Assembly (NCBI GenBank): GCA_027493875.1
Contig: JAOSJX010000023.1
Location: 124,001 to 188,000, forward strand
DNA: 64,000 bases
Source: Deltaproteobacteria bacterium
GTDB lineage: Bacteria; Lernaellota; Lernaellaia; JACKCT01
Direction of reading: 5' to 3'
The notes under the pieces were generated by a model. It saw only the letters and a program-made list of their open reading frames with translations. It searched no databases and was not told the origin of the DNA. How positions within the stretch are numbered: position 1 is the stretch's first letter; the number at the start of each line of letters is the position of its first letter. A program made the translations under genes and the position numbers. This document shows, one piece after another, positions 4,943-41,035 of this stretch.

Positions 4943-4970
4943 CTACCACCTACTACCTACCACCTACCAC
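4943..4970 (+). repeat. CTACCAC heptad array, 4 units
   Basis: Units CTACCAC, CTACTAC, CTACCAC, CTACCAC in strict 7-base register, with degenerate heptads on both sides (CACCTAC before, GTACTCC after). Confidence 0.85.
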
Positions 4971-5021
4971 GTACTCCCCTACTATCCGCGTTTTGAACGG
5001 ACGAATCGCGACAACGCGGGA

Positions 5022-5049
5022 CGTATATCGTATGTCGTAGGTCGTATGT
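5022..5049 (+). repeat. CGTATGT heptad array, 4 units
   Basis: Units CGTATAT, CGTATGT, CGTAGGT, CGTATGT in strict 7-base register, followed by CGG. The unit sequence is unrelated to AGGCTAC but the period is the same. Confidence 0.85.
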
Positions 5050-5203
5050 CGGAATAAGGCTGGCTTTGGCGCGAAAGGGCGTATTTCTTCTTACGGCGAA
5101 GGACAGATTTGGAAAAACGTTATAATATTCCGAAAACGCAGAATATATTGGCGGCTGCCGCAACCTGTTCTCGATTTATCCAAGTATGTAATAGGTGCCA
5201 ACG

Positions 5204-6596
5204 TTAGTTTCCACTTTCGGTGATTCTCCTCGCTATTTCCGCAGCAACGTCATTGTCCCAAGCGCGATGTTGGGAAGCGCTACCACGCGTCAGAATTTCT
5301 TGCTTCTTTTTCTTCAAAGCCCCGATGCCGTCAATGTCGCCTACGCTATCCAATACTGCTATCGTCGAAATCGCTTCAAGAGCGAATCTGACATCGACAC
5401 ATTGCGCACCAGCTTGGTAATGATCCAGCCAGGTATCGTAATCGACCATATTTAAAAGCATTTGTAATGGCGCATCATTTCCAAAGGGTTTCCACATCGC
5501 ATTTCTAGCGTTTGCGCCTATAAGACCGATATCATTTCTTATACTGCTGCCAACCGCTTTAATGGCCAACAACACAAGTTGTGCTTCGTCCTTGCTCAAT
5601 TGTTGTCGACAGCCACGTACCATCGTTTTAATAAAGATTTCCATTGCAATGAATTCCGGGCCCACGATGCAGTTCTGAAAATTCGTCAGCACTTGTCCCC
5701 ATTCTTCAGTGCGTGTTTTGTCTTCGAGGATTGACAGGAAACTGCTGCACAAGGTGTTTTTTTCCATTAATCATATATTCATATTTTCTTAGATCGCGAA
5801 GGGCGCCTAGGTGGTTACCGATAAAATCCGATGTCGGCAAAGGTTTTGTCGTTAGTTCTCGTGTAAGAGAGTTCCAGACAATTTCATTGGCCTCGTCGTT
5901 CCCGCTTTTACCGATATAGTGGACGCAATCGATCCTTAGGCTCATTGCCATTTTATTTCGATCGGTGTCAAATGTGCTAAAGTCCCATTTTAAATCGCGG
6001 GCAAGAGCATCGGACTCGGTGATACATCGTTTTAGATAATCGAAGGATTTCTGATGGCCACCAGATGCAAATTGCGAGAAAACTTTTAAAACCATGAAAA
6101 AGCTTCCCATGCGCCGACCGCTCAAAGGGCCAGAATACTTCTCAAAATAGTTTTTTAAGTATGTATATTCATTTAGACCGCCGAGTATTCCGATGGCATA
6201 GATGGAGTTTTGCAACGCAAAATAGTCTGAATTCGCGTCGTCTTCTGGGTTGCCTTCAATGACTGCTTTCATTTCGTTGACGACCTTCGTGGATTTCGTT
6301 TCAGAATTTATGCCAGCAATATAATCGTCAACACACTTTTGAGAAGTGCAGCTTTTGATGTTTTCAACGATTTTGCCAATCGAATAGGAATTCGTACCTA
6401 ACGCTTCATTCTCAGGATGCTGATTCAAATACAATATATCAGTTTTGTCGTGCTGCTCTTGGTGGCTGCTTTTGCAGCCAGCGAAAGACAAGAAAATCGC
6501 CGAAATTAAGCAACAAAAAGTAAGCCGTTGGAAAAACTGTCTCGCTTTACGACGGCGCGAATTATTTTTGGCTTCTTGACGGAATTCGACCGTCAT
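5204..6596 (-). CDS. AT-rich lipoprotein of unknown function, possibly helical-repeat (one frameshift)
   Basis: The N-terminus has a basic region and a hydrophobic stretch ending in LSFAGC, a good lipobox, so a membrane-anchored lipoprotein is likely. The mature part (about 430 residues) is mostly helical in character, with short repeated segments reminiscent of HEAT repeats (FALQNSIYAIGILGG, QLVLLAIKAVGSS, FALEAISTIAVLDS). I do not recognise a named family. The reading frame changes at a run of seven T (5757-5763), so the 296- and 187-residue frames are one gene. Base composition and codon use (many AAA, ATT, TTT) are clearly AT-richer than all neighbours, which suggests recent acquisition. 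It sits beside the repeat-rich spacer. Confidence 0.65.
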
Positions 6597-6685
6597 TGTT
6601 CGCTGTGCCCTTATTCGTCATATTCGATCCAGTCGATCCTCAGCAATTTATCCAATGCCGCCGTGTCTTCGAGGGAACATGAACA

Positions 6686-7131
6686 TCAGAAATCCACACG
6701 TTTGTCCATCGTGCCGTCGCCGTCGGTGTCTTCCTCGTAGTAGAGTTGGCGGTCGGTGGCGGGGTCGAAGTTTAGGTTTTGCGTTCGTAGCGGCCGTCGT
6801 TGTTGAGGTCGCGTTCCATCGTGGCTATTTTGCCGTTGGCGTCATAGGTGGAGCGCACTTCGAAGATGCCGTCGTTGTTCATATCCACGACCAACTCGTC
6901 GATCTTGCCGTTCTTGAAAACTTCCTTGTGATCGACCGTGCCGTCGTAGTTGCGGTCCTTTTCCAGCGCGGTGATTTCGTTGGACCAGTTGTAGTGCGTC
7001 CAGACGTCGGGCTTGCCGTCGTTGTTGCGGTCGATGGTCGGGTTCATCTTGTCTTTCGCGATGAACAGCACAAGCGTCGCGGCGGCCGCGATGAAAAGAA
7101 CCAGGATGATAAGACGCGTTGCAAGCTTCAT
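6686..7131 (-). CDS. membrane-anchored protein with EF-hand-like DxNxDG repeats (one frameshift)
   Basis: An N-terminal hydrophobic segment (RLIILVLFIAAAATLVLFIA) acts as signal anchor. It is followed by regularly spaced calcium-loop motifs: DRNNDGKPD, DRNYDGTVD, DMNNDGIFE, DLNNDGRYE. After a frameshift near 6780 a fifth loop DTDGDGTMD follows, with the stop at 6686. The spacing of about 23 residues and the text resemble thrombospondin-type-3/dockerin-like calcium-binding repeats. The start ATG at 7131 has an AGGA ribosome-binding site. The protein is probably exposed in the periplasm or on the surface and binds Ca2+. No partner is evident from context. Confidence 0.65.
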
Positions 7132-7225
7132 GGCAATCCTTTCTTGCGATGCCCGGCATTATTCCATAAAATCGTTCAGGGCAAGAGCATAGCTGAGAAC
7201 GCGGACACCCGGAGAGGAGACCGTC

Positions 7226-7876
7226 ATGAAAGTGCGTTATAACGGGCACTCCTGCTTTTCCGTCTTTGCGGACGACGGAAAGTGCATCGTCATCGATCCC
7301 TACGAATCGGGCGCGTACGGCGGGGCGATCGCCTACCACCCGGTGGATTCGGAGCCGGACGTCGTCGTGCTCTCCCACGACCACCCGGACCACAGCCACA
7401 CCGAGCAGTTCAAGAGCGACTTCAAGGTGGTGCGCGGTCCGGGCGAGGCGAAGGGTTTCAAGTTCGACGTCGTCAATACGTTCCACGACCAGTCGCAAGG
7501 CGCCGACCGCGGCAAAAACCGGATCTTCCTGTTCGAGGTGGACGGCGTGCGCGTCGGGCATATGGGCGACCTGGGGCACCTTCTCTCGGACGAGCAGATC
7601 AAAGCCGTCGGCGCGGTGGACGTGATGATGCTTCCGGTCGGCGGATTCTACACGATCGACGCGAACGAGGCGACGGACGTGGTCGAACGAACGCGTCCGA
7701 AGATCGCGATTCCGATGCACTACAAGACCGACAAATGCGGCTTCGACATCGCGCCGGTGGACGATTTCGTCGAGGGCAAAAACAACGTCATCAAGCTCGG
7801 GACCGACGAGATCGAGCTTTCGTCGGACAAACTGCCGGGCGAGACGGAAATTATCGTTTTGAAGCACCGCCTGTAA
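7226..7876 (+). CDS. metallo-beta-lactamase-fold hydrolase, UlaG-like
   Basis: This intact 216-residue protein has the metallo-hydrolase signature. It opens with KVRYNGHSCFSV, then LSHDHPDHSH gives the H-x-H-x-D-H metal site. GHMGDLGH supplies the next ligand, and PMHYKT the terminal His. This small compact version belongs to the UlaG/YtkL-like branch of predicted Zn-dependent hydrolases (L-ascorbate-6-phosphate lactonase relatives), whose substrates vary. Start ATG 7226 has GGAGAGGAG upstream. It is followed 24 bases later by methylmalonyl-CoA epimerase with its own AAGGAG, so co-transcription is likely but a functional link is not obvious. Confidence 0.85.
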   Translation: MKVRYNGHSCFSVFADDGKCIVIDPYESGAYGGAIAYHPVDSEPDVVVLSHDHPDHSHTEQFKSDFKVVRGPGEAKGFKFDVVNTFHDQSQGADRGKNRIFLFEVDGVRVGHMGDLGHLLSDEQIKAVGAVDVMMLPVGGFYTIDANEATDVVERTRPKIAIPMHYKTDKCGFDIAPVDDFVEGKNNVIKLGTDEIELSSDKLPGETEIIVLKHRL

Positions 7877-7900
7877 GCACCAAGAAAATAAGGAGACCGA

Positions 7901-8310
7901 ATGCTTAAAAAAATTGACCATATCGGGATCGCCACGACCAGCCTCGCCGACGCGCTGCCGTTCTGGACCGGCGGCGTCAAATTGGACGACGTGCATCAGG
8001 AGCTTGTGGCCGACCAGCACGTGATGACGGCGTTTCTGCCGTGCGGCGAGGTCAACATCGAGCTGCTCGAAGGCACCGCGCCGGAGAGCCCGATCACCAA
8101 ATTCATCGAGAAGCGCGGCGCGGGCATCCACCACATCTGTTTCGAGGTGGAGAACATCGAAGAGGCGCTGGCGCACCTGAAAAGCCAGGGCTTCAGCTGA
8201 TCGACGAGGAGCCGCGCATCGGCGCGCACGGCTGCCGCGTGGCGTTCGTGCATCCGAAGGCTTCGGGCGGTGTGCTGATCGAGTTGTCCGAACACGTCAA
8301 CGACGATTAA
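7901..8310 (+). CDS. mce: methylmalonyl-CoA epimerase (one frameshift)
   Basis: This glyoxalase/VOC-fold enzyme interconverts (R)- and (S)-methylmalonyl-CoA in propionyl-CoA metabolism. Metal ligands are visible: the His in KIDHIGIA, the Glu region NIELLE, the His in IHHICFEV, and the terminal Glu in VLIELSEH. The family hallmark [12 protein letters not shown] and VAFVHPK are present but lie in a second frame. A single-base loss near 8190-8197 splits the gene. Total length, about 136 residues, is normal for the family. The start has AAGGAG at good spacing. The following thiolase begins 17 bases downstream, an arrangement typical of acyl-CoA catabolism. Confidence 0.92.
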
Positions 8311-8327
8311 TTTTCCTGGGGGCTGTC

Positions 8328-9507
8328 ATGCGTGAAGTGTGGATTGTCAGCGGGGCTCGTACGCCGATCGGAAGCTTCGGCCGGTCGCTCAAAGATGTGT
8401 CGTCCACCGATCTCGGGGTGATCGCGGCGGAGGAAGCGATCCGCCGCGCCGGGATAGAAAAAGCGAGTTCGACGACGTGCTCGTCGGCAACTGCATGATG
8501 CGCAGCGACGAGATCAACGTGGCGCGGTGCATTCTGTTGAAGGCGGGTATTCCGTTCACCGTGCCGGGCGCGACGATTCAGCGCCAGTGTTCCAGCTCGA
8601 TGCAGGCGCTCGCCTTCGCGACGCAGCAGATCCAATGCGGGGACAGCGACGCGGTACTCGTGGGCGGAACGGAGAATATGAGCCGCGTGCCGTATGCGTT
8701 GTATGACGCGCGTTGGGGGACGCGGATGGGCGACGCCCGCGCCGTGGATATGCTGACGCAGGGCCTGGCCGATCCGCTGGGCAACTTTCACATGGGCATC
8801 ACCGCGGAGAACCTCGCGGAGAAATACGGCATCACGCGCGAGGACCAGGACGAACTCGCCTATACCAGCCATCAGCGTGCGTTGGCGGCGATCGATTCCG
8901 GGCGGACGGACGACGAGATCATTCCGGTGCCCATTCCGCAGCGGAAGGGCGATCCGGTCATGTTTTCCAAGGACGAGCATCCGCGCCCGGACGTGACGCT
9001 GGAGGGGCTGGCAAAGCTCAAACCGGCGTTCAAGAAGGACGGCACGGTCACGGCGGGCAACGCGTCGGGGATCAACGACGGCGCGTGCGCGGCGGTGGTC
9101 GCGGCCAAGGACAAGGCGGAGGCGCTGGGGCTCAAGCCGCTGGCGCGGGTGGTGTCCCACGGCCTGGGCGGCGTGGAGCCGGAGCTCATGGGATATGGTC
9201 CGGTGCCGGCGATGGAGCGAGCGCTCAAAAGGGCCAAGATGTCGCCTTCCGACCTTCAACTAATCGAGGTCAACGAGGCGTTCGCCGCGCAATATCTGGC
9301 CGTCGAGCGTCTTTTTGAAGCTGGACCGCGACATCACCAACGTGAACGGTTCGGGCATCGCGCTCGGCCATCCGGTGGGGATGCACGGGCCTGCGCATCG
9401 TGATCAGTCTCGTATATGAGATGATTCGGCGCGATCTGACCGTCGGCGCCGCGACGCTTTGCGTCGGGGGCGGGATGGGAATGGCCACGATTGTCGAACG
9501 CGTGTGA
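8328..9507 (+). CDS. acetyl-CoA acetyltransferase / thiolase (three frameshifts)
   Basis: Start ATG 8328 gives [20 protein letters not shown], the standard thiolase N-terminus. The acylated active-site Cys is in RQCSSSMQA. The C-terminal catalytic set is NEAFAAQ, GHPVGCTG and CVGGGMGMA. About 390 residues in all, normal for thiolase II. Frames change at a run of five A (8458-8462), near 9315, and near 9380 where one extra A turns GCTG into GMHG. Corrected, every catalytic element is intact. It forms or cleaves acetoacetyl-CoA or longer 3-ketoacyl-CoA. Chain-length preference cannot be read from sequence. The upstream mce suggests roles in beta-oxidation and propionate metabolism. Confidence 0.9.
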
Positions 9508-9520
9508 CGGTGTTGGCGAC

Positions 9521-9557
9521 AGGCTGCAGGTGACAGGCTGCAGGTGACAGGTTACAG
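9521..9557 (+). repeat. AGG-N2-RC heptad array, 5 units
   Basis: Units AGGCTGC, AGGTGAC, AGGCTGC, AGGTGAC, AGGTTAC follow each other in strict 7-base register. Same family as the AGGCTAC array at 4491 and the mixed array at 41214. Confidence 0.9.
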
Positions 9558-9620
9558 AAGGGTGCGGGCTCGCGTCCGAATTGCGGATTGACGATTGCGG
9601 AAAGCGGATTGAGATCCCGC

Positions 9621-9640
9621 GTGCTCACTGACGTGAGCAC
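9621..9640. repeat. intergenic hairpin
   Basis: GTGCTCAC (9621-9628) pairs perfectly with GTGAGCAC (9633-9640) around TGAC; CGCG flanks both sides. No T tract. Architecture resembles the hairpin at 4752-4776. Confidence 0.75.
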
Positions 9641-9998
9641 ACGCGGCGTCATCGACGGCGAAATTCTCGAATTCCAATAAACCCTCCTGAGGCACGACAC
9701 ACCTCGTCACTTACCGCGAGCTGACCGGAATGGACCGTGAGCAGTAGTCAGCCGCCAGTCGCCAGGATTTGGCGCGGTGTGACGCCGGAATCCGTTCGGT
9801 AAGCCGTCAATTTTAGATTTGTGGGAAATGTACTCGTGTGGCATGCAACAGCGCCGAGACTTTCGCGGCGCAAAAAACTCGTATCGGCTCGGTCCGTCCG
9901 TGATACACTCAGCGACGTTGCGTCTTCACGTTTGTTGTTGTTCGGTCAGCAGCGACCGTGGTGCTATATGGAAGTTTTGATTTGTTGAGAGGTAGGCA

Positions 9999-11431
9999 AT
10001 GTTTCGTCTCGTTGTGGCGCTATTCATTCTGGCCGGGATGTCCATTGATTGCACTCTTGACCCTTCGGCTGGCGGCGGCGCCGATGACGACGATTCCGCG
10101 GATACCGATTTAACCGACACCGCCGATGACGATACGTTTACTCTCGCCGATGACGATACGGCGGACGACGACACCGGCGACGATGACGACAGCGCCCCGG
10201 CCGACGTTCATCCTTATGAGTTTGCGCCGCCGCCGTCGAATTTGGTTGGGGTGTTTGTCGCGACGACGGGGACGACGCCAATCCCGGCTCGATGGCCTCG
10301 CCGAAAAGGACGTTTGCCGCGGGGGTCGCGACCGCGACGCTTAGTGGAAAAGCGGTCTACGTCGCGGAGGGAGACTATTCGTGGGCGATCGACGATTACG
10401 TATTCGTTTCGGTCTACGGCGGTTATGAACCGATCGGTTGGACGCGTGACATCCCGTCCCAAATGACCCGGCTCGTCATTCCGGGAGGGGATGCCGGTCT
10501 GATCGCGTCCACGCTGCAGAATATACCGATCGTCCTGGAGGGTTTAACGATTGTCGGCGAAGCCGTCCTCGACGGATCGCCTCCCGACACGTTGACCTCG
10601 TATCTCGTGCTGTTCGCGGATCTCGCCGTCATTTCTCAGGATCGAATCCTCGCCGGGGGATCCAGCCGATGGGCGCGCGCTTTGGATGCCTGGGGTCCCA
10701 CGCTCGTCGTCAACAGCGAGATCGGCATTGAAGGATTCGTTCCCGAAACCAGCGACGATCTGGCGAGCACCGTGATGGCGGACCGGTTGCTTGTTCTGGT
10801 GAATTCGACCGTTCGGGGCGGTTCCACCACCACGCCGAATGTTACGTCCTACGGCATTTACGCCGGGGACCTGATGTCCGTGATCACCGTGATCAACAGC
10901 CTGGTTACGGGCGGTTCGGTCCCGGGGCCGCGGGGACGTACGGCGGCCATTTACGCGGCCGGGGTCAAGGTGTTTCCGCCGTTCGTCACGGTGGCGAACA
11001 GCATCATCGACAGCGGCCAGTCAGCCCGTGCCGGCGGTTTTCATCTCATGGTTCCCTGGTTCATGCTTTTGCTCAACAGCGACGTTTGGGGCGCCGCGCT
11101 GACGTGCTACTACGACATGATTTTGGATTTCGGGATCCCGATGTGTCTGCGGCAGCCGGGGCAATTGAACCGGCCGCCCGTCGTCTGGACGCAGGCTTTC
11201 GACAACATCAGTGCCGATCCGCTCCTTGCGGGTGACGGGATTCATCTCCTCGACGGAAGTTCGTGCATCGATGCCGGGTTCGATTTGATGACCTATCCCG
11301 ACCTTTGGCTGCCATGGAGTCAGATTTACGGAATCGATCTGGCGCAACTCATCTCCCAGGATATCGACGGCGACCCGCGCCCGCAGGACTGGGGCTGGGA
11401 TATCGGGCCGGATGAATGGGTGCCACGGTAA
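9999..11431 (+). CDS. exported beta-helix protein with Asp-rich tether (one frameshift)
   Basis: A hydrophobic leader (MFRLVVALFILAGMSIDC) precedes a 45-residue Asp/Thr/Ala-rich tether. The Cys could be lipidated, although the residue before it (Asp) is not a standard lipobox residue. After a one-base loss near 10268 the frame reads DDANPGSMASPKRTFAAGV. That is the usual opening of right-handed beta-helix proteins with a DUF1565-like start. The following 370 residues have the periodic NS/V-x-N pattern of parallel beta-helices (VVNSEIGIEGF, VLVNSTVRGG, TVANSIIDSG, LLNSDVWG). They end in the common tail SCIDAG then DIDGDPRPQDWGWDIGPDE. Probably a surface-exposed envelope protein; substrate unknown. 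Confidence 0.75.
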
Positions 11432-11443
11432 ATCCTCACCGAA

Positions 11444-11469
11444 AAAGTAGACGGAAGCACTGCTACTTT
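11444..11469 (+). terminator. possible weak terminator or hairpin
   Basis: AAAGTAG (11444-11450) pairs with CTACTTT (11463-11469) across a 12-base loop, 13 bases after the stop of the beta-helix gene. The T tract is short (TTTCT), so termination would be weak. Confidence 0.45.
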
Positions 11470-11575
11470 CTCCTGGCGTCTGAACGGCTATTTCGTTGAC
11501 ACTCCCAAGGGGTGCGTGTTAACTGAATTCCGCGATTTTCAAGGGGAATTTAAGGATCGAACCGGGAGGTGGCTG

Positions 11576-12831
11576 ATGCGGCGGGTGGGGCTCGTTCTCT
11601 TGGCATTCGCGTGCGTTTTTGTGCCGGCGCACGCGTTCGGAAGCCAGATGCTGGTGCCGTCGGATATCGGATTGACGGCGCGCGGCGTGGCGCTCGGCAA
11701 CGCGATGACGGCGGTGGCCGGCGACCCGAGCGCCATCTATCACAACCCCGCCATCCTCGCGACGTACGAGCACTCGCAGATCAATACGGGCTATCTTTTT
11801 ACGGACCCCAGCCTTTCGGGCGGCCCCAAGGGCAATACCAACGAGTTCGACGAGGGCAATAACTTCGTCCTTTCGAATCTGGTGCTCAGCCTCCGCAGCA
11901 TGTTCAAAAACAATCACCCGGTCGCTTTCGGTTTGTCGATGTATTTCGACCGCAACTTCCGCAGCCTGATCAACTTCATCGACGTGGAAGAGGGCGAAGG
12001 CTACTTCTACCGCTACGGCCGCGCGAGCACCGCGGCATCGATGGCACTTGGTTTCGCCGTCACCGACTGGCTGTATCTCGGCGGCGGAACGGTCATCACG
12101 TTGCGCGGTGAGACGGACTTTCAGGTCAACACCGACATGGCGGGCAATACGTCGAACGAAGGCATGATCCTCGACGCGCGGCTTTATTATTCGCCGGTGG
12201 CGTCGGCGTTCGCCGATTTCGAGGTCGTCGACATCGGCGTGACCTATCACGGCGAAAATTACGGGCGCTTCGGCGACATCACGGTGGACGCGGAAGCGAC
12301 GGTGGGCGACTCGCCGCTGTCGGAGCTGCCGCTCGTCATGTCCTTCCAGGATACCTTCATGCCGCAAAACATCGCGCTGGGTTTTGCTTTTCCCTCGGCG
12401 ACGCGGCGAAGATCGCCGTGGACGGCGTCTGGTACAACTGGGGCCGTTTTGACGAACGCGTGGCGGAAGACGATCTGCCGCGCGAGGACGTGAAGATCGA
12501 TTTCGTGGATACGTACGTGCCGCGCGCGGGGATCGAATACAATCTGGCGGAGAATTTTCCGCTGCGTCTCGGGTATAGTTATCAGATGACGCCGATGCGG
12601 ACGCCGGGCGACCGGACCAACGTGTTTCTGGACAACGACCGGCACGTGGGGTCGATCGGGCTCGGTTACACGATGGAGGACCCGCCGGTTTTCGCGTTGC
12701 CCGTGTCGCTGGATGCGGCCTATTTTCACCAATACCTGGTGCCGGACGAGTACGAAACAGCGGACGGCTTCACGTACGAAAGCGAAGGCAACGTCAACGG
12801 CGGCGTCGTCACGCTGAATCTGCAATTCTAA
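11576..12831 (+). CDS. FadL/OMPP1-family outer-membrane transport protein (one frameshift)
   Basis: Start ATG 11576 follows GGGAGG. A signal peptide (RRVGLVLLAFACVFVPAHAFG) is cleaved before the FadL-like N-terminal region. The family hallmark is GVALGNAMTAVAGDPSAIYHNPA, read here as the usual A-x-A-x-D-x-SA-x-Y-x-NPA pattern. The rest alternates like beta strands, and the C-terminal strand ends in GVVTLNLQF with a terminal Phe, as expected for an outer-membrane barrel. A single-base loss near 12400 divides the frame. About 418 residues, normal for FadL. The family moves long-chain fatty acids or other hydrophobic compounds across the outer membrane, consistent with the acyl-CoA genes nearby. 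Confidence 0.85.
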
Positions 12832-12845
12832 AGGGGGCGCGAGCG

Positions 12846-15547
12846 ATGAGACGCATTCTCACGGCGGCCCTGGCGGCCTTTTTCGCGGCGAGCCTTCCGC
12901 TCGCGTGCGACGATTCGCGGTCTCCGCTGCCGGAGCGCGCATCGGACGGCGCCTTTACGGTCCAGTTGGCGATACCGGCCCCCGGACGCACGGGCGTTCC
13001 GCTGACGGCGCGGGTTATTTTCCATTTCAACCGAACGATCGATACGGCGGCGCTCGATCCGTCGTTCGCGTCCCTCGAGAAACTCGACGAGGCCGGCGAG
13101 CCGGTCGCCACGGTGCCGATCGACATTCAGGCCGCGGGGCCGAACGTGATCGCCGCGCCGAGGAAACCACTGGAGCCGAACACGCGTTTCCGCGCGACGG
13201 TGACCGAGGCGGTGCGCGACGCGCGAGGCAACGCGCCCGTTTTGGACGGCGGCTCGTGGTCGATGGAATTCGAGACGGGCGCGGAGCGGCGGCTGGCGGG
13301 CGTGACGCCGGCGATCAGCTCCGCCGTGCCGGCGGAAGGCGAGACGGTTTTCGACTGGACGACGTTCCGGTTTTATTTCAGTGAGCCGCTCGACGCCCGA
13401 TCGATCGTCTACGGCCAGCACGTGGGACTGCGCCGCCAGGGAAGCGGAGTCGATCGTTCCCGCGCAGATGTTCGTGAACGGCGGGCAGGTTGTGGTCGAT
13501 CCGGATTCGGACCTCGAACCGGGACGGGTCTACGAAGTATTTTTCGCGCCCAATCTACGGGACGCGGGCGGCGAGACGCTGGGCGAGGAACGGGTCTTCA
13601 CTTATACGATTGACGATTCGAATCCGCGCGTGACGCTGCAGGTGGAACACTGCCCGACGCTGGGCGACCATTCGAGCTGCCCGGCGGTGCCGAACATCGC
13701 GACCATCGACCCTCGGCGTTTACGGGGAGTCGTCGAACACGATGGTCGTCAACTCGACGCTTCTGGGACGGACGGAGATGATCATCTCCGGACAATTGAC
13801 GGTGGAACTCGGCAATACGGCGTTTGACAGCGACTATATCCCGATCGTTATCCGGAAGGGGCAGACGCTGTACGGCGCGCCGCTCGAAGCCCTGCTGGGC
13901 GGCGAGATACCGACGGGTCTCGAGACCGGAACGATCGTCGTCAGCGTGCTGACGGACGCGTATGGGTACCTGGAAAGCTCGGAGCGGCTGTTCGGGATCG
14001 ACGGTTCGCAGGTTTCGCTGTCGTTCCTTCTGGACGTCGCCGTGACGACGACGGAAGCGAAAGCCAACGCGCAGATGGGGCAGCTCATTCTCGGCATCCC
14101 GCTGGACGGCACCGCGCGCGTCCTGGACGGCGGCGTGCTGTTCATGGAAGCGGCGGGCTTCGCCTCGATGAACGTTCTTGGGGAAGCCATGGGCGTGACG
14201 ATCTCGCTGTCGATGCAACCGCCGATCGGCGAGATCGATTCGGCGCCGGACACGAACGGTCCGCAATTGGTTTCCGCGGCGCCGCCGTCGGGGGGAAACG
14301 AGGGCGCGGCTCGGCGATCCGGTCATCATGAATTTTTCGAAACCGCTGGCGCCGGACACGCCGGGCGCGAGCGTGCAAATGCGAACCGCGGGCGGGTCCG
14401 CGGTGCTCGGCAGTCTCGAGCTGAAGGGCAATAAACTCATCTACCGGCCGTCGCATCCGCTGGCGCCGGATACGGACTATGTGGTGACGATCGCGGCGAC
14501 GCTCAGTGACGTGTTGCAACGCGCGTCGGGCATCCAACGGGAGGTCAAATTCAGGACGGGCGCGGCGGAGGTCTCCGGACGTGCCGCCGATGATCGGCGC
14601 GACGGACCCGGGCGAGAATACGCCGTACGATCATCCGGGCCACCTTCCAATCGTGGTGACGTTTACGCAGTTGATGGAAACGAATTCGATCCGCCTTGGC
14701 GATACGTTCGAAGCTGCGCGACCTGACGCGTGGGGCGACCGTCGCCGGGACGCTCGACCGGACGTGGACGTCGGCGACGTTCTGGCCGAACCGTCCGTTT
14801 GAAACGGGGCATACGTATCGTCTTGTGATGACCGGCGACATCACGAATTTCAACGGCGTTCCGATCGATTTCGATCAGGACGGAATGCCGGGCGTGGCCG
14901 ACGGGCCCAATCAGTTCACGACGGAATTCCGCGGCGCGCCGCCGGACGCGACGGTCGGGCAGATTTTCGATCTGGCGCCGTTTGCGGATACCGACACCTC
15001 GGGATATCTGGACGGCGACGAGGAAGAGGCCGAGGCGAACTTCTTCGCCATCAATCTGCTCGGCCTGACGCCGCCGCCGAGTTACGTCGGCGGGTATATG
15101 ACGGCGCACATCCGGCCGCTCGAATGGTCGAACGGCGATCCGATTCTGCCGATCGACCTGGGCGACGGCATCCGACTGTTTTCGACCAGCACGACGCTGA
15201 ATATGAAGGCGCTGACGGTTGAAAAGCTCGGGTTACTCGGAGACGGGACGCATCGTCATCGAGGCGACGGATCTCGGCTCCGCGGACGTGGCGGAAGGCG
15301 CGGACGGCTCGCCGGTGATGCTGGTTTCGATGGAAACGTCGTTCCGGCCGGAAAACGAAACGCTGGGCGGGCTGCTGGACGATCAGCTCGGCTTTTCGGC
15401 GACGGGCCGCCTGAGTTTCACGCCGGACGGCCGCATGGTGGCCGACATCGGCGGACGCACGCGGCTTGGTTGACGATCCCGATCATCAATCTGACGATTC
15501 CGATTCCGGTGAACATCAACCTGCGCGCCCGCAGCGCGGCGCCGTGA
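12846..15547 (+). CDS. large lipoprotein with bacterial Ig-like (Big_5/SbsA-type) domains, many frameshifts
   Basis: The leader RRILTAALAAFFAASLPLACDD ends in a Cys with a loose lipobox. Repeated modules read P-x-x-G-x-x-GVPL-x-A, then F-x-FN/S-x-x-D, then L-x-P-x-T-x-Y/F-x-A/V-T. Examples are RTGVPLTARVIFHFNRTID, FYFSEPLDARSIV, NFSKPLAPDTPGA, LAPDTDYVVTIAATL and PFETGHTYRLVMTGDI. This is the SbsA/Big_5 Ig-like signature. EF-hand-like acidic stretches (DFDQDGMPGVAD, DTDTSGYLDGDEEE) lie in the C-terminal half. Frame changes occur near 13430, 13720, 14310, 14570, 14705, 15230 and 15465, the highest density in the window. About 900 residues. Function unknown; probably a surface scaffold or adhesin. 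It is 14 bases downstream of the FadL-like gene. Confidence 0.65.
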
Positions 15548-16525
15548 TTATTCTTCGGCGTAGGTAAACGGGAAATTGTTCGACAGCACGATGACGTCGT
15601 CCGCCGCGCGGATGTAAACGTCGTAGACCAACGAGCCAGGAAACGGATTGGGCACATCGATCGTGATGCGCTCGGTGGTGAAATTCGTGGCGGGAACGAT
15701 GACGAGTCCGTCCGGATTGTCGGTCGCTTCAAAGACAATCTGGAAGTTGGTGATTTCGTCGGTATTGAAGCGGCCGAAGAGCTCCATCTTGTCGCCCGGC
15801 GGCCCCGACGGGCGACACGACGCCTTGAATGAGAAAGGGCGTGTTGCCGAAATCGGAATCGAGCACCTGGATCAGGAGGACCTCGATATCCTGGCCGCCG
15901 AACATGGGATGCACCAAGGCGAAACCGTAGGGGCCCGTTTCGTCGCCGGCGTAGACCAGCACTTCCGGGCCGGTCGGCAATTCAAACGAGAAACGCCCTT
16001 CCTCATTGCTGGTGACCTCGTAGGTCGCGCCGCTTTCTCCGCTTCCAATGTTTTCAACAGGATCGCCAAGGCCGAGATCATCGCCGCGATCGAGGTCATA
16101 GAGCCCGCCGCCGATCTGCGCAAATCCGCGGACCGTGATTTCGACGCGCTGCGCTCCGGGGAGAAGGTCGGCGACCGTGGAGCCTGAGTAAGCGATCTCC
16201 TGCTTGCCGTCCAGGGCTTCCACGAGGATCGTCCTGTCCAAGCCGGTGGGTACGGTGACCGTGGGGCCGTCGTAGGGTTCGCCGGTGTCGATCGCGTCGG
16301 TGATCGGAAAGTTTCGTTCAATCGTTTCCATGTCGTCCGCCGTGATCGTAACGCGGATCGCCCACAACTCTTCGTCTTCGGAGAGCGGGGTCATGTCAAA
16401 GAAGACTACGGCATCGGCGTCGCCGGAATCCGCCACCTCGCCCGTGCCGTCGCTCGTCAAGCATCCCGCCGCCAAGGCGGAGAAGACGACGAGAGTAATG
16501 CGGTGGACGCGGCGCGGAACATCAT
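15548..16525 (-). CDS. lipoprotein of unknown function (two frameshifts)
   Basis: The lipobox reads FSALAAGC, after a hydrophobic stretch ITLVVFSAL. The ATG at 16525 reaches this only if a one-base indel near 16505 is allowed. A second frame change lies near 15795 and joins SPVGAAG to KMELFGRFNTDEITNF. The mature protein (about 300 residues) is predicted beta-rich, with Asp/Glu/Gly-rich turns and a carboxypeptidase-regulatory-like segment (GRFSFELPTGPEVLVYAGDE). That segment suggests Ig or CarboxypepD_reg-like folds. Family not recognised. It follows the FecR-domain gene on the same strand with only a few bases between, so the two are probably co-expressed. Confidence 0.55.
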
Positions 16526-23474: not shown

Positions 23475-23603
23475 CGAGAGCGGTTCGCGGATATACGTAT
23501 CTTCTCAACAAACATGAGACGGACGCGGTCGACAGTTTTCAGTCAACGGTTAACAGCATTTTCCGGCGTTGCCGCGGCTTCCCGTTCGTGTGAGTTTTCG
23601 ACT

Positions 23604-23624
23604 GTTAACTTTGAACTGTGAACT
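23604..23624 (+). repeat. GTGAACT-type heptad repeat, 3 units
   Basis: Units GTTAACT, TTGAACT, GTGAACT in 7-base register, with degenerate relatives around 23536-23556 (AGTCAACGGTTAACAG). It lies in the 218-base spacer between convergent genes. Confidence 0.6.
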
Positions 23625-23692
23625 GTTCATCGGGGCGTACCGATCACCCGTCGAAGCGGTCGATGGACGGCGATGGAAATCCGTGAACAGCT

Positions 23693-30159: not shown

Positions 30160-30179
30160 GCGCGCCGGTACCGGCGCGC
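30160..30179. terminator. perfect 20-base palindrome between convergent genes
   Basis: GCGCGCCGGTACCGGCGCGC is its own reverse complement. It begins 9 bases after the stop of one gene and ends 1 base before the stop of the convergent gene. It may act as a bidirectional terminator or as a protein-binding palindrome; there is no T tract on either side and, without a loop, it would pair less well as an RNA hairpin. Confidence 0.5.
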
Positions 30180-32586: not shown

Positions 32587-32805
32587 TGAGATTCCTCCTC
32601 GTGCGTCCGGACAAACGAGCACACGAATACCCAAGCCCCGTAGATTCAAGATCCCGGCCAATTTGACGGAGCATGGGGCTATCTCGTAACCTATTGAAAA
32701 AACACAATTTATTTGATCATCTTAATTTTGATGGCGTCAATAGACCGGCAAGAATGAGCCGGTATCGTGTCACGAGTCGGCAAGAATTGACGGGATTTTG
32801 GCGCG

Positions 32806-33975
32806 CTATTCGAACAGATAGCGTCGGCTATTGATGTTCAGGAGAAGGGTCACGATGGCAAGCATCGTAAAAACGGCGGTTCGGCCGTAGCTGAAAAAAG
32901 GCAACACCACACCGACCACGGGCATGAGATTGAGGACCATGCCGACGTTAATCAGGACGTGCCAGAACAGTACGGACGACAAACCGAACGCGGCGATCGA
33001 TCCGAATCGATCCTTGGAACGCGATGCGACGGAGAATCCCCAGGTAATGAGGATAAAGAACAGCATCAGAACGATAAGGCAACCGAGAAAGCCCCCATTC
33101 TTCGGCGAGGACTGAAAAAACGAAGTCGGTGTGCGTTTCGGGAAGGAATTGCAGTTTGGTTTGCGTGCCTTGGAGAAAGCCGTTGCCGAAGACGCGGCCG
33201 CTTCCGACGGCGATCAACGACTGTCTGATGTGGTATCCCGCGCCGAGCGGATCGCGCTCGGGGTTGAAAAGCGTGAGAATACGTTCTTGCTGGTAGTCCT
33301 TGAGTACGAAAAAACCAGGCGATGGGCGCGACCACGGCGCCGAGCGCGCCCAGGCCGAAGATCGTTCGCCGGTCGATGCCGACGAATAGCACCATGCTTC
33401 CGAAAAGCAACACATGCAGAATGGCCGTCCCGAGATCGGGTTCGGCCATGATGAGAATCGTCGGAACGACGAGCATCCCGAACGGGATCGCGATGTCCTT
33501 GAGCGTATACCCGCCGCTTTTCGGATGCTGCGCGAAATATCGGGCAAGCGCGAGCACCAGGGCGATTTTGGATAACTCCGACGGCTGAAAACGAATAATG
33601 CCGATGCCGAGCCATCGGGCCGAGCCCTTGGAGGTGAAGCCGACGATCAGCGTCAGGGCGAGCAGCACCGCGGCGATGATATAAAACCAATATGCGGAAG
33701 CCTCATAAAAGTGGTAGTTGATGACGTAGATCGCGGCCATGAGTCCGGCGCAGATGACGAACCATCGGAGCTGGGCGGAAAAGAGCGCTTCCTTGGCAGC
33801 GTCGCCGTGCGTGGCGGAGAAAAAGATTGGCGACACCGATCAACGTCAGGAGGAGCACGACGAAGGCGACGGCCCATTCAAAGCGCGAGCCCACGGATCG
33901 GCTGACGCGCCCGGAGTAGTCCTGGCCGGGAAGGCGATAGGGTTTGTACTTTTTCTTTCGCCGCCAGAAGGCCAT
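32806..33975 (-). CDS. rodA: RodA, SEDS peptidoglycan glycosyltransferase (three frameshifts)
   Basis: Start ATG 33975 overlaps the mrdA stop (TGATG). A basic N-terminal tail ([17 protein letters not shown]) leads into about ten transmembrane helices. SEDS landmarks are [81 protein letters not shown] and [17 protein letters not shown]. RodA polymerises glycan strands during elongation together with PBP2. Frame changes near 33825, 33310 and 33095 interrupt the gene. It should be essential for rod shape, so these are almost surely sequence errors. Last gene of mreB-mreC-mreD-mrdA-rodA. Confidence 0.95.
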
Positions 33976-35845
33976 CAGTCCCCCGAGTCTTTTTGCCGAG
34001 CGCGACGGGTTTGTCCACATCGCGGCGGCCTTTGGCGCGGAACCAGGCGCGCATGACCTGCGCGGCGACGGGCGCGGCCACGACGCCGCCGTGGCCGGAG
34101 TGTTCGACGACGGCGGTGACGAGAATTTCGGGGTTTTCGTAGGGTGCGTAGGCGGCGAACAGGGCGTGGTCGCGGGCTTCGTAGGGAACCTGACTGACGT
34201 GCAGACGCACTTTTTTAATGCCGCGAACCTGACTCGTTCCCGTTTTCCCCGCGGTGTGAACGCCCGAAATTCGGCCGCGTCCCCCCGTTCCGCCGGGATC
34301 GTGAACGACGCCGAAAAACGCGCGCGAGAGAAATTGAAGGTTTTTTTTCGACACGGGGAGTTCGCGCAAAACTTCCGGTTCGATGTCGCGCACCACGGCG
34401 CCCGCGGAGTCTTCAATGCGGTCGACGACGCGCGGGCGATAGAGCGTCCCCCGTTGGCGACGACGGCATACGCCGAAGCGATCTGTAGAGGAGTTACCTT
34501 GAGATACCCCTGGCCGATCGGAGACGTTCAGGGTGTCGCCGGGCAGCCATCGCTCCTTCTGCGTTTCGGATTTCCACTTCCGGTCGGGCACGACGCCGCC
34601 TTTTTCGCCGACGACGTCGATGCCCGTCAGGTCGCCGAAACCCAGGGCGCGGGCATATTCGGCGATGACGCCGATCCCCATCTGGAAACCCATTTTATAA
34701 AAATAGACGTCGCAACTATGGACGATGGCTGTGTGAAGATTGACGTAGCCGTGGCCTTGGGCGTTGTGGCAACGGAAGTCCCGCCCGCCGAAGTGCCATT
34801 TTCCGGGACAGTAGACGACATCTTTGGGATGGATGGCGCCGCTTTCCAGCCCGGCGAGCGCGGTGACGAGTTTGAAGGTCGATCCCGGCGGGTACATGCC
34901 GCTGATGAATTTATTCAGCAGGGGCGTTTTTTTGTTGGAGAGAAATCCATTCCACAAATCGTGCGGAATGGGCCGGGAGAAAATTTCGGGCTTGAAACCC
35001 GGGGTGGAAACGGCGGCCAGGACGGCCCCGGTCCGCGGATCGAGCGCCACCACGGATCCGGCGCCTTCGCCGAGCGCCTCGTGCGCGGTTTCCATCAGGA
35101 GCTTGTCGACGTTGAGAACGAGGTTTCGGCCGGGTTCGCCCCGCTCGGTTTCGAATTCGCGAATGGCGGTTCCACGGGCGTTCACCTCCACGCGGCGATG
35201 CCCGTACACGCCGGCGAGGTCCTTTTCATAAAATTCCTCGATGCCCGTTTTCCCGACAAGATCGCCGGGCCGGTAGTCGGCGTACTCGGGGAGTTCGAGC
35301 CGCCCCGCGTCGATCTCGTCGCAGTAGCCGAGCAGGTGCGCGCCGATACTTCCCAAAGGATAGACGCGCATGCTTTCCGCTTCGATTTCGAAGGGGAAGT
35401 TCGGACCGAAGACCATTCCGCGCGTCTCGATGCGGGCGACCTCCTCGCGGCTGATGTCGGTCTTGATCTTGATCGGCTGCCAACCGCGCGATGCGGCGAG
35501 CCGGCGTTTGGCGACGTCGAGGTCGAAACCCCACTCGGCGCTCGCCGCTTCGAGGACTTCGAGGCGGCGGCTGCTCGTGATTTGGGCGGGCCGGAAAAAG
35601 AGGTTGTAGCTGGGCCTGTTTTGCGTGAGCAGTTCGCCGCTTCGGTCGCGGATGATGCCGCGCGGCGCGGCCATGCGTTGATCGCGAATCTGCTGGCGCT
35701 CGGACGTCTTGCGGAGGTCGGCGCCCTGGATGACCTGAAGAAACCATAGTTTCGCCAGCAAAAAGACAAACGCGACGATGACGACGATGAAGACCGTCGT
35801 GTGGCTTCGATTCGGCGCGTCGGCGAAGTCGGAGGTTTCCCACAT
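33975..35845 (-). CDS. mrdA: penicillin-binding protein 2, transpeptidase (frameshifts near 34460-34520 and at the 3' end)
   Basis: ATG 35845 gives a short cytoplasmic tail and one transmembrane helix (HTTVFIVVIVAFVFLLAKLWF). The PBP dimer region has RGIIRDRSGELLTQNRPSY. The transpeptidase motifs are SGMYPPGSTFK (SxxK), HSCDVYFY (SxN-type, here SCD) and HTAGKTGTSQV (KTG). About 620 residues, normal for PBP2. Two compensating frame changes lie around 34460-34520, where the reading should be close to GDTLNVS followed by GGTLYRPRVVD. A shift in a run of five A at the end gives KKDSGD and a stop that overlaps rodA. Role: cross-linking of peptidoglycan in the elongasome with RodA. Confidence 0.95.
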
Positions 35846-35850
35846 GCGGC

Positions 35851-36366
35851 TTACCAGCGGTCCTGGAACAACGTCATGTCGCGCCGCGGCGAGCTGAGGG
35901 CTTCGTCGAGCAGGAAGAGCGCCGGGAAGATCAGGAAGCCAGCGGCGAGGTTGAGACCGACCTGGACGAGCAAGGGGGAGTCCCTGAGGCGACGCGCCGC
36001 TCATCCCGAAAAAGAACAGCACGGCGCCACGCAGCGCCATTTGCGCGGCGGTCAGTCCGGCGATGGCGACGAGATGAAAAGTGATGCTGCGGAGATAGAA
36101 GTACTTGGACATTTCCACGATCAGAAAAAACACGCGACGAAAACGACGGCGTTCATGCCGGGAAGGTTCCCTCCGAGGGCATCCAGCGCGAAACCGAAGA
36201 TAAACGCGAGAAACAACCCGCGGAGCGGATTCATGACGTGCGCGGGAAAAAGGACGACCAGAAGCGTCAACTGGGGCGCCAATCCGAGGATCGGAAGGTG
36301 GACGCGCCAGAGATTTTCGATCACCAGCGCGACGACGCCGATCGCGAAGTAAAGGAGACCGGGCAC
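35851..36366 (-). CDS. mreD: MreD rod-shape-determining membrane protein (frameshifts)
   Basis: GTG start at 36366, 2 bases after the mreC stop, with GGAG upstream. Helices read LLYFAIGVVALVIENLWRVHLPILGLAPQLTLLVVLFPAHV, then NPLRGLFLAFIFGFALDALGGNLPGMNAVVFVACFF. They continue after frame changes near 36120 and 35985 with ITFHLVAIAGLTAAQMALRGAVLFFF and finally SPLLVQVGLNLAAGFLIFP, ending RDMTLFQDRW. Topology and position between mreC and mrdA identify it. The family is poorly conserved, so the assignment depends partly on context. Part of the elongasome membrane scaffold. Confidence 0.85.
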
Positions 36367-36368
36367 GG

Positions 36369-37230
36369 TCAGGGCTCCTTCGTTTCGGCGGGTGTTTCCA
36401 ATTCCGGCGGACGGGTTCGGTGCCCGGCACCAGGACGATTTCCTCGAGGCGGACGAATTCGACGGTGGGGCGGACTTCAACCACTTGAAACATTTCGTTG
36501 CTCTCACGGTCCACGCGGATCACCTGGCCGAGAACGTGCCCTTCGGAAAGACGCCGCCGATGCCGGAGCTCACGACCGTGTCGCCGGCGAGCACGTCGTC
36601 GGTTCGCTCAATGAATTCCATGACGCACTTATTCTTGCCTTGCCCGCGCAAAGACCGGACGCACGCGTGCGTTGAATGACCGCGTCGACAACCGAGGAAG
36701 GGTCGGTGAGCAGCATAATTTTCGCGGCGTTGCCGGTGATCGCGGAGACATGGCCGACGAGACCCGACCGCGATAGCGCGATCATGTTTTTCGCGATGCC
36801 GTCGTCTCGGCCTTTTCCGACGATGAGGGTGCGAAATTCCGGGGCGTTCGACCGCGCGATGACTTTTGCGAAAACGGGTTTGGGATTTTTTCGGCAAGGG
36901 CAGATCGAGCAATTCGCGCAAGCGCTCGTTTTCGGCGCGCAGTTCGCCGAGTTGGTTCTCGACAGGAGCCAGTTCCTCCACGCGCTGTTTCAATCGGCGG
37001 TTTTCCTCCTTGACGTCGACGAGGAGAAGATAGTCGCCGGCCAGCCCCGCGATTTTTCGAAACGGCCAGGAGATGACCTTGTGCACCGGCGTGTAGATCG
37101 TCAGCACGGTCCGGCCGGCCCAGCCGATGTCCTCATTGCCGGTGATCGCCAGCGAGGCGACGTGCAAGCCCAGCAGCGTCAGCGCGATCGCGGCGAGCAG
37201 CACCTTATACTGTAGGAGGAAGCCTCTCAT
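36369..37230 (-). CDS. mreC: MreC rod-shape-determining protein (frameshifts)
   Basis: ATG 37230 (RGFLLQYKVLLAAIALTLLGL) gives the single transmembrane helix. It is followed by the MreC coiled coil (VKEENRRLKQRVEELAPVENQLGELRAENERLRELLDLP). The frame changes at a run of six T (36886-36891), after which the beta domain reads PVFAKVIARSNAPEFRTLIV and SRSGLVGHVSAITGNAAKIMLLTDPSSVVDAV. Then VVSSGIGGVFPKGT and EVRPTVEFVRLEEIVLV follow, ending in ELETPAETKEP. MreC is the periplasmic scaffold that links MreB filaments with PBP2. About 285 residues. Confidence 0.92.
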
Positions 37231-37268
37231 GCGGCTTGTTTCCCGTATTTGAAGCCGGGATGCCGCTG

Positions 37269-38429
<1,161 letters not shown>

Positions 38430-38580
38430 TCATACGGGAAAAGCTCCCGCGTTGGAATGGCGCGGGCCGGCGGGTCCGGAGCGCGCCGGCCGCGCCCGCG
38501 GCGCTCGCTGGTTTTTCGGCTAATTCAGGGGGTAATGTCGTGCCGATAACCACTATCTCTTTTTAATGTTGGAGGGCGTC

Positions 38581-38980
38581 GTGACGTTGACCATGTTGAA
38601 ATGGGCGAGTTTGCCGGCTCTGATGCTCGTTCTGGAACCGGAAACAGCGGGTTTTTTTCGCGCGTCAATGGAGCGCGCTGCAAACGGCCGCGGCGAACAA
38701 ACAAGTGCTCGGCGTCCTCTTGAATCCGTATATGATTGTGCTGGCCGTGGTGATGCTCGCGTATGGTATCTATAAGAGTTGGCGCGCTCCGGTCGTACTG
38801 ATCGTCGCCGCGTGGGGCTACGGCTTGACCTACCATTTCAGTCTCGGGCGGCAGGAAGCGGCTATCTCCTGGGGCGACCTCGACCAGAATTTCGCGCAGA
38901 TCGGACCCGTCGTCATTTTTATCCTTGGTGTTCTGGTCGTTTCCTTTCTCGCGCTCTATTTCCTGTTTATGCGCGATTAG
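38581..38980 (+). CDS. small membrane protein of unknown function (one frameshift)
   Basis: GTG start at 38581 with GGAGGG five bases upstream. The first segment is hydrophobic (MLKWASLPALMLVLEP). A run of seven T (38652-38658) shifts the frame. Then comes RQWSALQTAAANKQVLGVLLNP and two or three transmembrane helices (YMIVLAVVMLAYGIYKSW, APVVLIVAAWGYGLTYHF, IGPVVIFILGVLVVSFLALYFLFM). About 133 residues. No family recognised. It lies between divergent mreB and rimO. Confidence 0.6.
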
Positions 38981-39084
38981 AACACCGCCGCTTCCCGTCC
39001 GAAGCCTTTTGGCGTTGCCAATGAACGGCGTTTCGAGTATTTAGTTGGGCCGTTTGGCCGCGCCCGGCGCGGGAGAATTTTCCG

Positions 39085-40479
39085 ATGCAACGGTACGAAA
39101 ACACGGCGAAACCCCCGACGTCCGGTACCGTCCGGATCGTGGCGCTCGGTTGCGCCAAAAACCTCGTGGACACGGAACGCGTCGCGGGGAATTTTCAGAG
39201 GCGCGGATGGCGTCAGGTGGCGGACGGCCCGGCGGACGTTGTCGTCGTGACGACGTGCGGATTCATCGCCGCGTCGGCGCAGGAATCGGTGGATACGTTG
39301 CTCGAAGAAATCCAGGCCAAGGAACGCGGGGAGACCCGTTATCTCGTTGCCGCGGGATGCCTGCCGGACCGCTACCGCAATGACCTTTGCCGCGAGATGG
39401 ACGAACTCGATCTGGTCGTCGGCGTGACGGAGATGACGCGGCTTCCCGAACTGGTCGAAGAAAATTTTGCCGGCCGCCTCAAGCGCTGGGAGTTTTCGAG
39501 CCGCTCGTTGAATGCGCCGGTCGAAGGACCTCGCATATTGTCCGGGCCGCCGTGGCGCTCCTATCTCAAGATCGCGGACGGCTGCAACCAGGGATGCACG
39601 TTTTGCATTATTCCGAGGATTCGCGGGGCGCAGCGCTCAATTCCGCTGAACGACCTTGTGGAAGAGGCGCGGACGCTCGCGGCGTCGGGTGTTGTGGAGT
39701 TGTCGTTGATCGCCCAGGATCTCACTTCGTACGGCACCGATCTTTACGGCGCGAAAACGCTTCCGAGGCTGCTGGAGGCGTTGGAACGCGTGGACGGATT
39801 GCGCTGGATTCGTTTGCTTTACGCGCACCCGGCGCATTTCGACGACGATATGGTCCGCGCGATGACCGAGAACGAAAAGGTTGTTCCCTATCTCGACATT
39901 CCGTTCCAGCATATCTCGGATCGAATGTTGACGGCGATGAACCGCCATATGGACCGCGCGGGCCACGAGCGTCTGCTCGACCGGTTGCGTTCGCGGGTGC
40001 CGGACATCGCGATCCGCACAACGTTCATTACCGGCTTTCCCGGCGAGACGGCGGAGGATTTCGAGGAACTCTACGAGTTTGCGCGCGAATGGCATTTCGA
40101 CAACGTCGGCGTCTTTCCGTACAGCCGCGAGGAAAACACGCCGGCGTTCGGGATGGCGGGCCACGTCGTGGAGAAGGTGGCGGAAGAGCGGATGGACCGG
40201 TTGATGACGCTGCAGCGCGGTATCTCGCGCGATCTCCTTTGGGCGAAACGCGACCGCGTCATTTCCGTGCTCGTCGAAGAGGAACTTGCGCCGGAACCGG
40301 GCGACCGTTACACGCATCTGGGGCGGGCGCTCAATCAAGCGCCGGAGATCGACGGATTGACGTATCTTCACGTGCCCGACGGCGCCGCGGTGATGACGGG
40401 CGATATCGTCGCGGCGCGCGTGGAAACGGCGTCGGACTATGATCTTTTTGCGGCGCTCGTTGAGGTCGATCCGGCTTGA
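39085..40479 (+). CDS. rimO: RimO, ribosomal protein S12 methylthiotransferase
   Basis: Intact 464-residue radical-SAM enzyme that adds a methylthio group to the conserved Asp of ribosomal protein S12. The N-terminal UPF0004 domain carries its cluster cysteines in ALGCAKNLVDTE, VVTTCGFI and AAGCLP. The SAM cluster is DGCNQGCTFCIIP (CxxxCxxC). Further RimO text: IAQDLTSYGTDLYG, LDIPFQHISDRMLTAMNR, TTFITGFPGETAEDFEEL and YSREENTPA, and a C-terminal TRAM domain. YSREE..A distinguishes RimO from MiaB. It is followed 67 bases later by tadA, so two translation-related modification genes are adjacent. Confidence 0.97.
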   Translation: MQRYENTAKPPTSGTVRIVALGCAKNLVDTERVAGNFQRRGWRQVADGPADVVVVTTCGFIAASAQESVDTLLEEIQAKERGETRYLVAAGCLPDRYRNDLCREMDELDLVVGVTEMTRLPELVEENFAGRLKRWEFSSRSLNAPVEGPRILSGPPWRSYLKIADGCNQGCTFCIIPRIRGAQRSIPLNDLVEEARTLAASGVVELSLIAQDLTSYGTDLYGAKTLPRLLEALERVDGLRWIRLLYAHPAHFDDDMVRAMTENEKVVPYLDIPFQHISDRMLTAMNRHMDRAGHERLLDRLRSRVPDIAIRTTFITGFPGETAEDFEELYEFAREWHFDNVGVFPYSREENTPAFGMAGHVVEKVAEERMDRLMTLQRGISRDLLWAKRDRVISVLVEEELAPEPGDRYTHLGRALNQAPEIDGLTYLHVPDGAAVMTGDIVAARVETASDYDLFAALVEVDPA

Positions 40480-40546
40480 CAGCCACCGGGCCATGGCCTA
40501 AGAACCCAAACGTCCATTACCGGAAACACGGGCGGTCTTTGATATC

Positions 40547-41020
40547 ATGACGGCCGATGAAAGGCTGATGGAAGGTGCGTTGCGCGAGGCCGAAATGGCG
40601 CGCGACGCCGGCGAAGCGCCGATCGGATGCCTAGTGGCGCATGGCGATGAAGTGATCGCCTCGGCGCACAACGTGCGCGAGACCGCACGCGATCCGCTCG
40701 GCCATGCCGAGATCATCGCGTTGCGGGCCGCCGCGGAGCGGTTGGGGCGCTGGCGGCTCACGGGATGCACGCTTTACGTAACTTTGGAGCCGTGCGTGAT
40801 GTGCGCCGGCGCAATAGTGCTTTCGCGCGTGGACCGCGTGGTGTACGGCGCCGCCGATCCCAAAGCGGGCGCGGTGACGAGTTTGTACCGGGTATTGAGT
40901 GACGAACGGCTCAATCACCGGCCGGAAGTGACCGCCGGCGTGCTGGCCGAACGTTGCTCGGCGATCCTTTCGGATTTTTTCCGCGAACGACGAGCCGGAA
41001 TCGTGAAGGATGAAAAATGA
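40547..41020 (+). CDS. tadA: tRNA-specific adenosine deaminase TadA
   Basis: Intact 157-residue zinc deaminase that converts A34 to inosine in tRNA-Arg(ACG). Motifs: PIGCLVAHGDEVIASAHN, HAEIIALRAAAE (zinc His and catalytic Glu), and LEPCVMCAGAIVLSRVDRVVYG (PCxxC). The C-terminal region GVLAERCSAILSDFF is typical. The last codons and the stop TGA (41018-41020) lie inside a GAAGGAT heptad array, so the final residues VKDEK are encoded by repeat DNA. Confidence 0.96.
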   Translation: MTADERLMEGALREAEMARDAGEAPIGCLVAHGDEVIASAHNVRETARDPLGHAEIIALRAAAERLGRWRLTGCTLYVTLEPCVMCAGAIVLSRVDRVVYGAADPKAGAVTSLYRVLSDERLNHRPEVTAGVLAERCSAILSDFFRERRAGIVKDEK

Positions 41021-41035
41021 AGGATGAAGGATGAA
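41005..41035 (+). repeat. GAAGGAT heptad array overlapping the 3' end of tadA
   Basis: Units GAAGGAT, GAAAAAT, GAAGGAT, GAAGGAT then GAA in strict 7-base register. The tadA stop codon spans the boundary of the second and third units. Confidence 0.85.

Follow-up and report, generated by a model that had tools for sequence, protein, structure and literature searches.

Why should tandem repeats of different words, scattered over a bacterial genome, share a single unit length? The question is raised by a stretch of 64,000 nucleotides (C23:124001-188000, hereafter the window), in which the original prediction had singled out four short repeats, CTACCAC, CGTATGT, GTGAACT and GAAGGAT, and had ascribed their common period of 7 bases to a copying mechanism with a fixed 7-base step rather than to the spread of one element. 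All four repeats were recovered with TRF at period 7, within a few bases of where they had been placed. A lag scan of the window gave six segments at period 7, four at period 3 and two each at periods 6 and 9, with none at periods 2, 4, 5, 8, 10 or 11. The arrays of the window are the following.

4491-4625, plus strand: (AGGCTAC)19, the longest heptad array of the window (TRF period 7, 19.3 copies, 96%).
4659-4688, plus strand: (AGGCTAC)4, the second copy within a 63-bp duplication of the array edge (TRF periods 7 and 63).
4941-4978, minus strand: ACCTACC heptads, originally read as CTACCAC, the left arm of an inverted pair with 5018-5049 (TRF 4941-4974).
5018-5051, plus strand: CGTATGT heptads, the right arm of the pair with ACCTACC (TRF 5022-5051; pairing); the flanks resemble C24:63,500-63,600.
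9518-9557, plus strand: CAGGTGA and CAGGCTG heptads with a period of 14 = 2 x 7, unpaired (TRF, 100% at period 14).
23532-23556, plus strand: ACAGTTTTCAGTCAACGGTTAACAG, which forms the 5' arm of an inverted pair through 25 bases of complementarity to 23602-23626.
23601-23626, minus strand: GTGAACT heptads, the 3' arm of the pair with 23532-23556 (TRF; complementarity).
41004-41035, plus strand: GAAGGAT heptads, unpaired (TRF).
41212-41280, plus strand: CAGGCTA and CAGGTCA heptads between two tRNA-Ser genes at 41117-41207 and 41339-41428 (TRF periods 7 and 21).
41436-41515, no strand assigned: GGTTATCC octads, an inverted pair with the layout of the heptad pairs at period 8 (arms 41436-41465 and 41486-41515).

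It is evident from this list that the words are less independent than they had seemed. Most of them do differ, but CTACCAC and CGTATGT form the two complementary arms of a single inverted pair, and of the four repeats first noticed, three are arms of such pairs; the claim that they lack any sequence relation is therefore not borne out. The complementarity between 4948-4978 and 5018-5049 has a score of 14, reached in none of 1000 shuffles, and that between 23532-23556 and 23602-23626 has a score of 13 (again 0/1000), with the region 23528-23630 folding at z = -2.67. The octad arms score 14 (0/1000; fold z = -4.52). No inverted partner was found up to 200 bp downstream of the array at 9518-9557. 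The GAAGGAT array is unusual in its relation to a gene, as the tadA reading frame at 40547-41020 (TadA by NCBIfam, E 4e-50) runs into the array, which supplies its stop codon. A few other genes likewise end inside arrays.

The prominence of 7 extends well beyond the window. We sampled 1.2 Mb outside it, 1.26 Mb in all, from the 5.2-Mb host assembly, predicted genes with a six-mer coding score and classed each tandem array by its best period. In intergenic DNA, 56 arrays have period 7, 11 have period 14 and six have period 21, compared with two at period 5, six at 6, one at 8, 13 at 9, two at 10, none at 11, one at 13 and between none and two at 4. Equal frequencies of 5-, 6-, 8- and 9-base periods, the outcome named beforehand as speaking against the original prediction, are thus contradicted by the host spectrum. 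The predicted autocorrelation peak is also present, with intergenic values of 0.2657 at lag 7 vs 0.2605 at lag 5 and 0.2591 at lag 8, and further peaks at lags 14 and 28. Coding DNA lacks a peak at 7, in agreement with the proposed confinement to spacers: its arrays peak at multiples of 3, and the six with period 7 are close in number to those at periods 4, 5 and 11 (4, 3 and 3). A coding tandem repeat with units of 57 and 114 bp was seen in the window itself at 59343-59837, inside a long open frame (59104-62424). In the first 864 kb, under a stricter threshold, 33 intergenic arrays of period 7 were found vs 0.3 expected from Markov-resampled intergenic DNA. Exact runs of at least 13 identities occur almost exclusively at lag 7.

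Several other repeats were also noticed. A 9-base family, CACCGCAGAGGACGCAGAGG, and its complement occur at window 4414-4445, C22:175,232, C22:351,480-351,870 and C24:164,180, and can form an outer pair of arms that encloses those made of heptads. A raised period 9 was seen in foreign loci too (32 vs 16 at period 8). A separate dispersed palindrome, CGCGGACTCACC..GGTGAGTCCGCG, lies at window 4640-4900 and 9600-9650, C22:200,040, C24:63,355-63,420 and C22:433,880; the motif CTCAC-N2-8-GTGAG has 18 occurrences in the sampled host genome, all in spacers. A 25-base unit with TCAGGACATGGGTAAC, apparently another dispersed element, is found at the distant loci C23:531,473 (L170), C22:433,975 and C22:435,330.

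An excess of heptads is not in itself without precedent. As summarized in later papers, heptanucleotides exceed every other class of long unit in abundance in most genomes, with slippage over a polymerase contact of 7 nt put forward as the cause (Mrazek et al., 2007, via PMC4679880 and PMC4692102). The 7-base idea of the original prediction is, according to these summaries, already contained in the work on long simple sequence repeats (SSRs) of 2007. By the excess of unit length 7 and the intergenic placement seen in the host, and by the change in length in whole units seen at one Pseudomonas ortholog, the window repeats are of this heptanucleotide long SSR kind. Unlike what is described here, the summaries mention neither polar inverted pairs nor stem-loop seeds.

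One could instead suppose that the heptad families are so many dispersed mobile repeats, alike in period only by coincidence. The CGTATGT arrays at window 5022 and C24:63,550 are indeed alike with their flanks included (87% over 75 bp), and a 63-bp unit with the AGGCTAC edge has been duplicated within the window. However, almost no other distant pairs of arrays have common flanks, the remaining matches being neighbors or other dispersed repeats, and the period-7 peak spans dozens of unrelated words. This mobile-repeat reading appears to be largely refuted by the flank comparison, and we regard it as highly improbable. Since the flanks of host arrays are mostly unrelated, a single mobile element is excluded for all but the CGTATGT array. 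Nor do the copies have a sequence in common beyond the tandem units, as REP elements or MITEs would, apart from neighbors and a few dispersed repeats in the flank BLAST. Unity of period across different words thus stands, and so does the denial of one spreading element, with the exception of the roughly 75 bp that the CGTATGT array shares elsewhere.

Evidence for growth in place comes from one orthologous convergent spacer in Pseudomonas, flanked by what we take, from our own reading of the flanking sequence, to be malic enzyme and penicillin-binding protein genes. In four close species the spacer carries 6, 16, 10 and 7 copies of AGGCTAC, situated 5' of a diverged 3' arm. In sister species this position, behind the same terminator, is occupied by nothing more than a short stem-loop (GGCTCAAGGCGAC-loop-GTCGCCTGAGCC or similar), and other species have neither array nor stem-loop. 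The change by whole units, together with the short stem-loop of the sister species, indicates that arrays grow in place at a stem-loop. Short and long period-7 runs are about equally frequent in foreign spacers, so arrays seem to expand fast once started. Viral contigs held only five (AGGCTAC)3 stretches.

Many host arrays are inverted pairs around a short spacer. These often lie next to a stop codon, in some cases enclosing an intrinsic terminator, and their two arms carry identical or related heptads (AGTAGGT/ACCTACT, AGGTTAC/GTAGCCT, GTTGACA/TGTTGAC, GGTTGTT/AACCAAA). Paired arms match one another with scores of 13-21, vs a mean of 7.5 for swapped flanks. The pairs are also polar: the G-rich arm comes first in 10 of 11 host pairs, the sole C-first pair of the sample being 4948-4978/5018-5049. 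The same polarity was seen in 105 foreign loci with (AGGCTAC)3, where chance would give, by our own arithmetic, about 0.1 match in the 257-Gb collection. These loci come from many phyla, as named in database records, several of which are metagenome bins for which single assignments may be wrong. In 36 of the loci an inverted partner follows the AGGCTAC strand downstream, in four it lies upstream, and shuffles gave none; for about 60% of the foreign AGGCTAC arrays no partner could be detected. Among pairs built from other heptads, the G-first order prevails by 43:8 overall (host 9:1, relative G002 6:0, foreign loci 28:7), compared with 112:94 for ordinary 11-bp inverted repeats in the same sequences (Fisher p = 6e-5). 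G-first pairs predominate in tandem (34:6), convergent (25:6) and divergent (5:0) spacers, which means that gene direction is not the cause, and also among units without GG (11:3). Being independent of both gene direction and G-tracts, the polarity looks like a feature of how DNA is made or kept rather than of transcription.

Such a polarity is exactly what would be predicted if a telomerase-like enzyme extended the 3' ends of breaks or nicks with specific heptads and the joined ends were left as an inverted pair, because the G-rich strand of each arm would then run 5' to 3' toward the center. The sharp edges of the arrays are in keeping with this possibility, as is the recurrence of the same heptads in distant phyla: eight of 27 host heptad classes form arrays elsewhere too, vs 2.65 expected (p = 0.002). 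On the other hand, one genome holds many unrelated heptads (28 classes), for which a single enzyme template is insufficient, the center of a pair is often an intact terminator or spacer, and the whole-unit variation between Pseudomonas orthologs, with the short stem-loop in the sister species, fits slippage instead. We therefore consider telomerase-like addition quite unlikely. A broader version, in which spacer stem-loops receive their heptads from a conserved bacterial process (either a dedicated enzyme or a shared intermediate of replication), with fixed strand polarity, the G-rich strand of each arm directed 3' to the center, and with a restricted vocabulary that recurs in unrelated phyla, is a speculative proposal that we hold to be only slightly less doubtful.

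Paired arms in spacers also invite the interpretation that the pairs are selected RNA elements, either terminators or mRNA 3'-end hairpins, to which the 7-base repeat is incidental. Arrays are enriched in convergent spacers (21/64 arrays vs 102/717, p = 4e-4) and depleted in divergent ones (4/64 vs 136/717), several host pairs flank intrinsic terminators, and stabilization of transcripts has been proposed for the 7-bp STRR hairpins of cyanobacteria (PMC2670836). Yet mismatches in the arms are not biased toward G-U on the sense strand (68 G-U vs 94 A-C), a pattern that speaks for pairing of DNA rather than of selected RNA. The polarity is unchanged in divergent spacers, a stem does not need a 7-base period, and no Rfam family matches in the window. 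This reading is rather unlikely in our judgment, even though it is the strongest of the competing ones. Two other regularities were tried and did not survive: variation of heptads limited to two positions is weak (3.00 phases hit vs 3.29 expected), and a transition-biased, G-U-compatible variation was rejected (81:60 in the host vs 205:213 elsewhere).

The explanation that we favor, with somewhat better than even confidence, is that the repeats are heptad arrays grown locally in intergenic stem-loops by 7-base replication slippage, and not copies of one element. The seed would be a short spacer stem-loop, typically close to a gene 3' end, at which stalling may act as the trigger. Slippage of the new strand during DNA replication would then add whole 7-base units to one or both arms, with different heptads amplified in different spacers, and the length of the polymerase contact may be the reason for 7. 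Both arms would derive from one stem, and because of this common start the same or a related heptad would appear, inverted, in both. If expansion were favored when the G-rich strand is synthesized just before the stem-loop, the G-rich arm would come first on both strands. A strong local fold does lie 3' of the G-rich strand in 28% of host arrays and before it in 10%, a bias that is missing in the foreign AGGCTAC set (12% vs 10%). A terminator-like core was rejected as a general rule, since it is found in the host only.

Not every observation agrees with slippage at stem-loops. Two-copy duplications of 7 bases are not enriched outside arrays (21 seen vs 17.9 expected), so that the first step in the birth of an array is not seen, which counts against the model. 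The same result leaves unsupported a copier of any seven bases, from which surplus two-copy duplications would be expected. A search for an age gradient along the arrays toward the stem-loop was negative, with neither end measurably younger. As for the step itself, period 7 dominates as had been claimed, but a strictly fixed 7-base step is not supported given the octad pair at 41436-41515 and six period-8 arrays in G002. The array load is strong in the host and its relative G002 and almost nil in the relative G001, and arrays were concentrated in one of 20 bacterial families taken at random; this patchiness among relatives is not explained by simple polymerase geometry.

How does this compare with the heptamer repeats already described? 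The GGGAATC and GGGGA(C/T)T heptamers of Xanthomonas and Nostoc are intergenic, with few between divergent genes, and form 70 and 75 close, convergently oriented GGGAATC site pairs in two Xanthomonas genomes (PMC4692102). These are the same polar pair as that of the host, where paired sites are likewise found. Each of those genomes has one G-tract word, read as a G-quadruplex (PMC4692102), whereas here many words, several without GG, share the paired layout, and the host units AGGCTAC, GTTGACA and AGTAGGT lack the G-tracts of at least 3 seen there. The cyanobacterial STRRs are hairpin-forming 7-bp tandem units in spacers, e.g., hupS-hupL, described for filamentous cyanobacteria only (PMC2670836), and window 23528-23630 has each of these properties, being a hairpin of 7-bp tandem repeats in a spacer. 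TAACTGA direct repeats occur as intergenic heptamer arrays in Beggiatoaceae, Cyanobacteria and Bacteroidetes; in Beggiatoaceae most of them directly precede start codons, and inversion is very rare (PMC4679880). In contrast, host arrays avoid divergent spacers, are often inverted pairs and show no preference for start codons (7/64 lie no more than 30 bp from the 5' end of a gene, where 8.6 are expected). What is new here is that the polar paired layout recurs with numerous unrelated heptads outside the quadruplex type, both within one genome and over a dozen or more phyla; no description of this was found in the literature searched.

The reason for the dominance of 7 bases in bacterial tandem repeats has been a standing question since 2007. 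Polar inverted pairs are not predicted by plain slippage; as a fingerprint of the mechanism, they have to be reproduced by whatever explanation is put forward. Since they occur with many unrelated heptads in one genome, and with AGGCTAC in a dozen or more phyla, they lend themselves to tests by comparison alone. In the family of the Nostocales genome G304 (locus L069), GGGGAYT triple repeats are present in 37 of 60 genomes with 0 to 1442 matches per genome, and this range between related genomes offers a ready comparison for finding a genetic cause. The polar pair also suggests that the repeats of Xanthomonas and Nostoc and the STRRs all exemplify a single, general phenomenon and did not arise as independent G-quadruplex or regulatory inventions.
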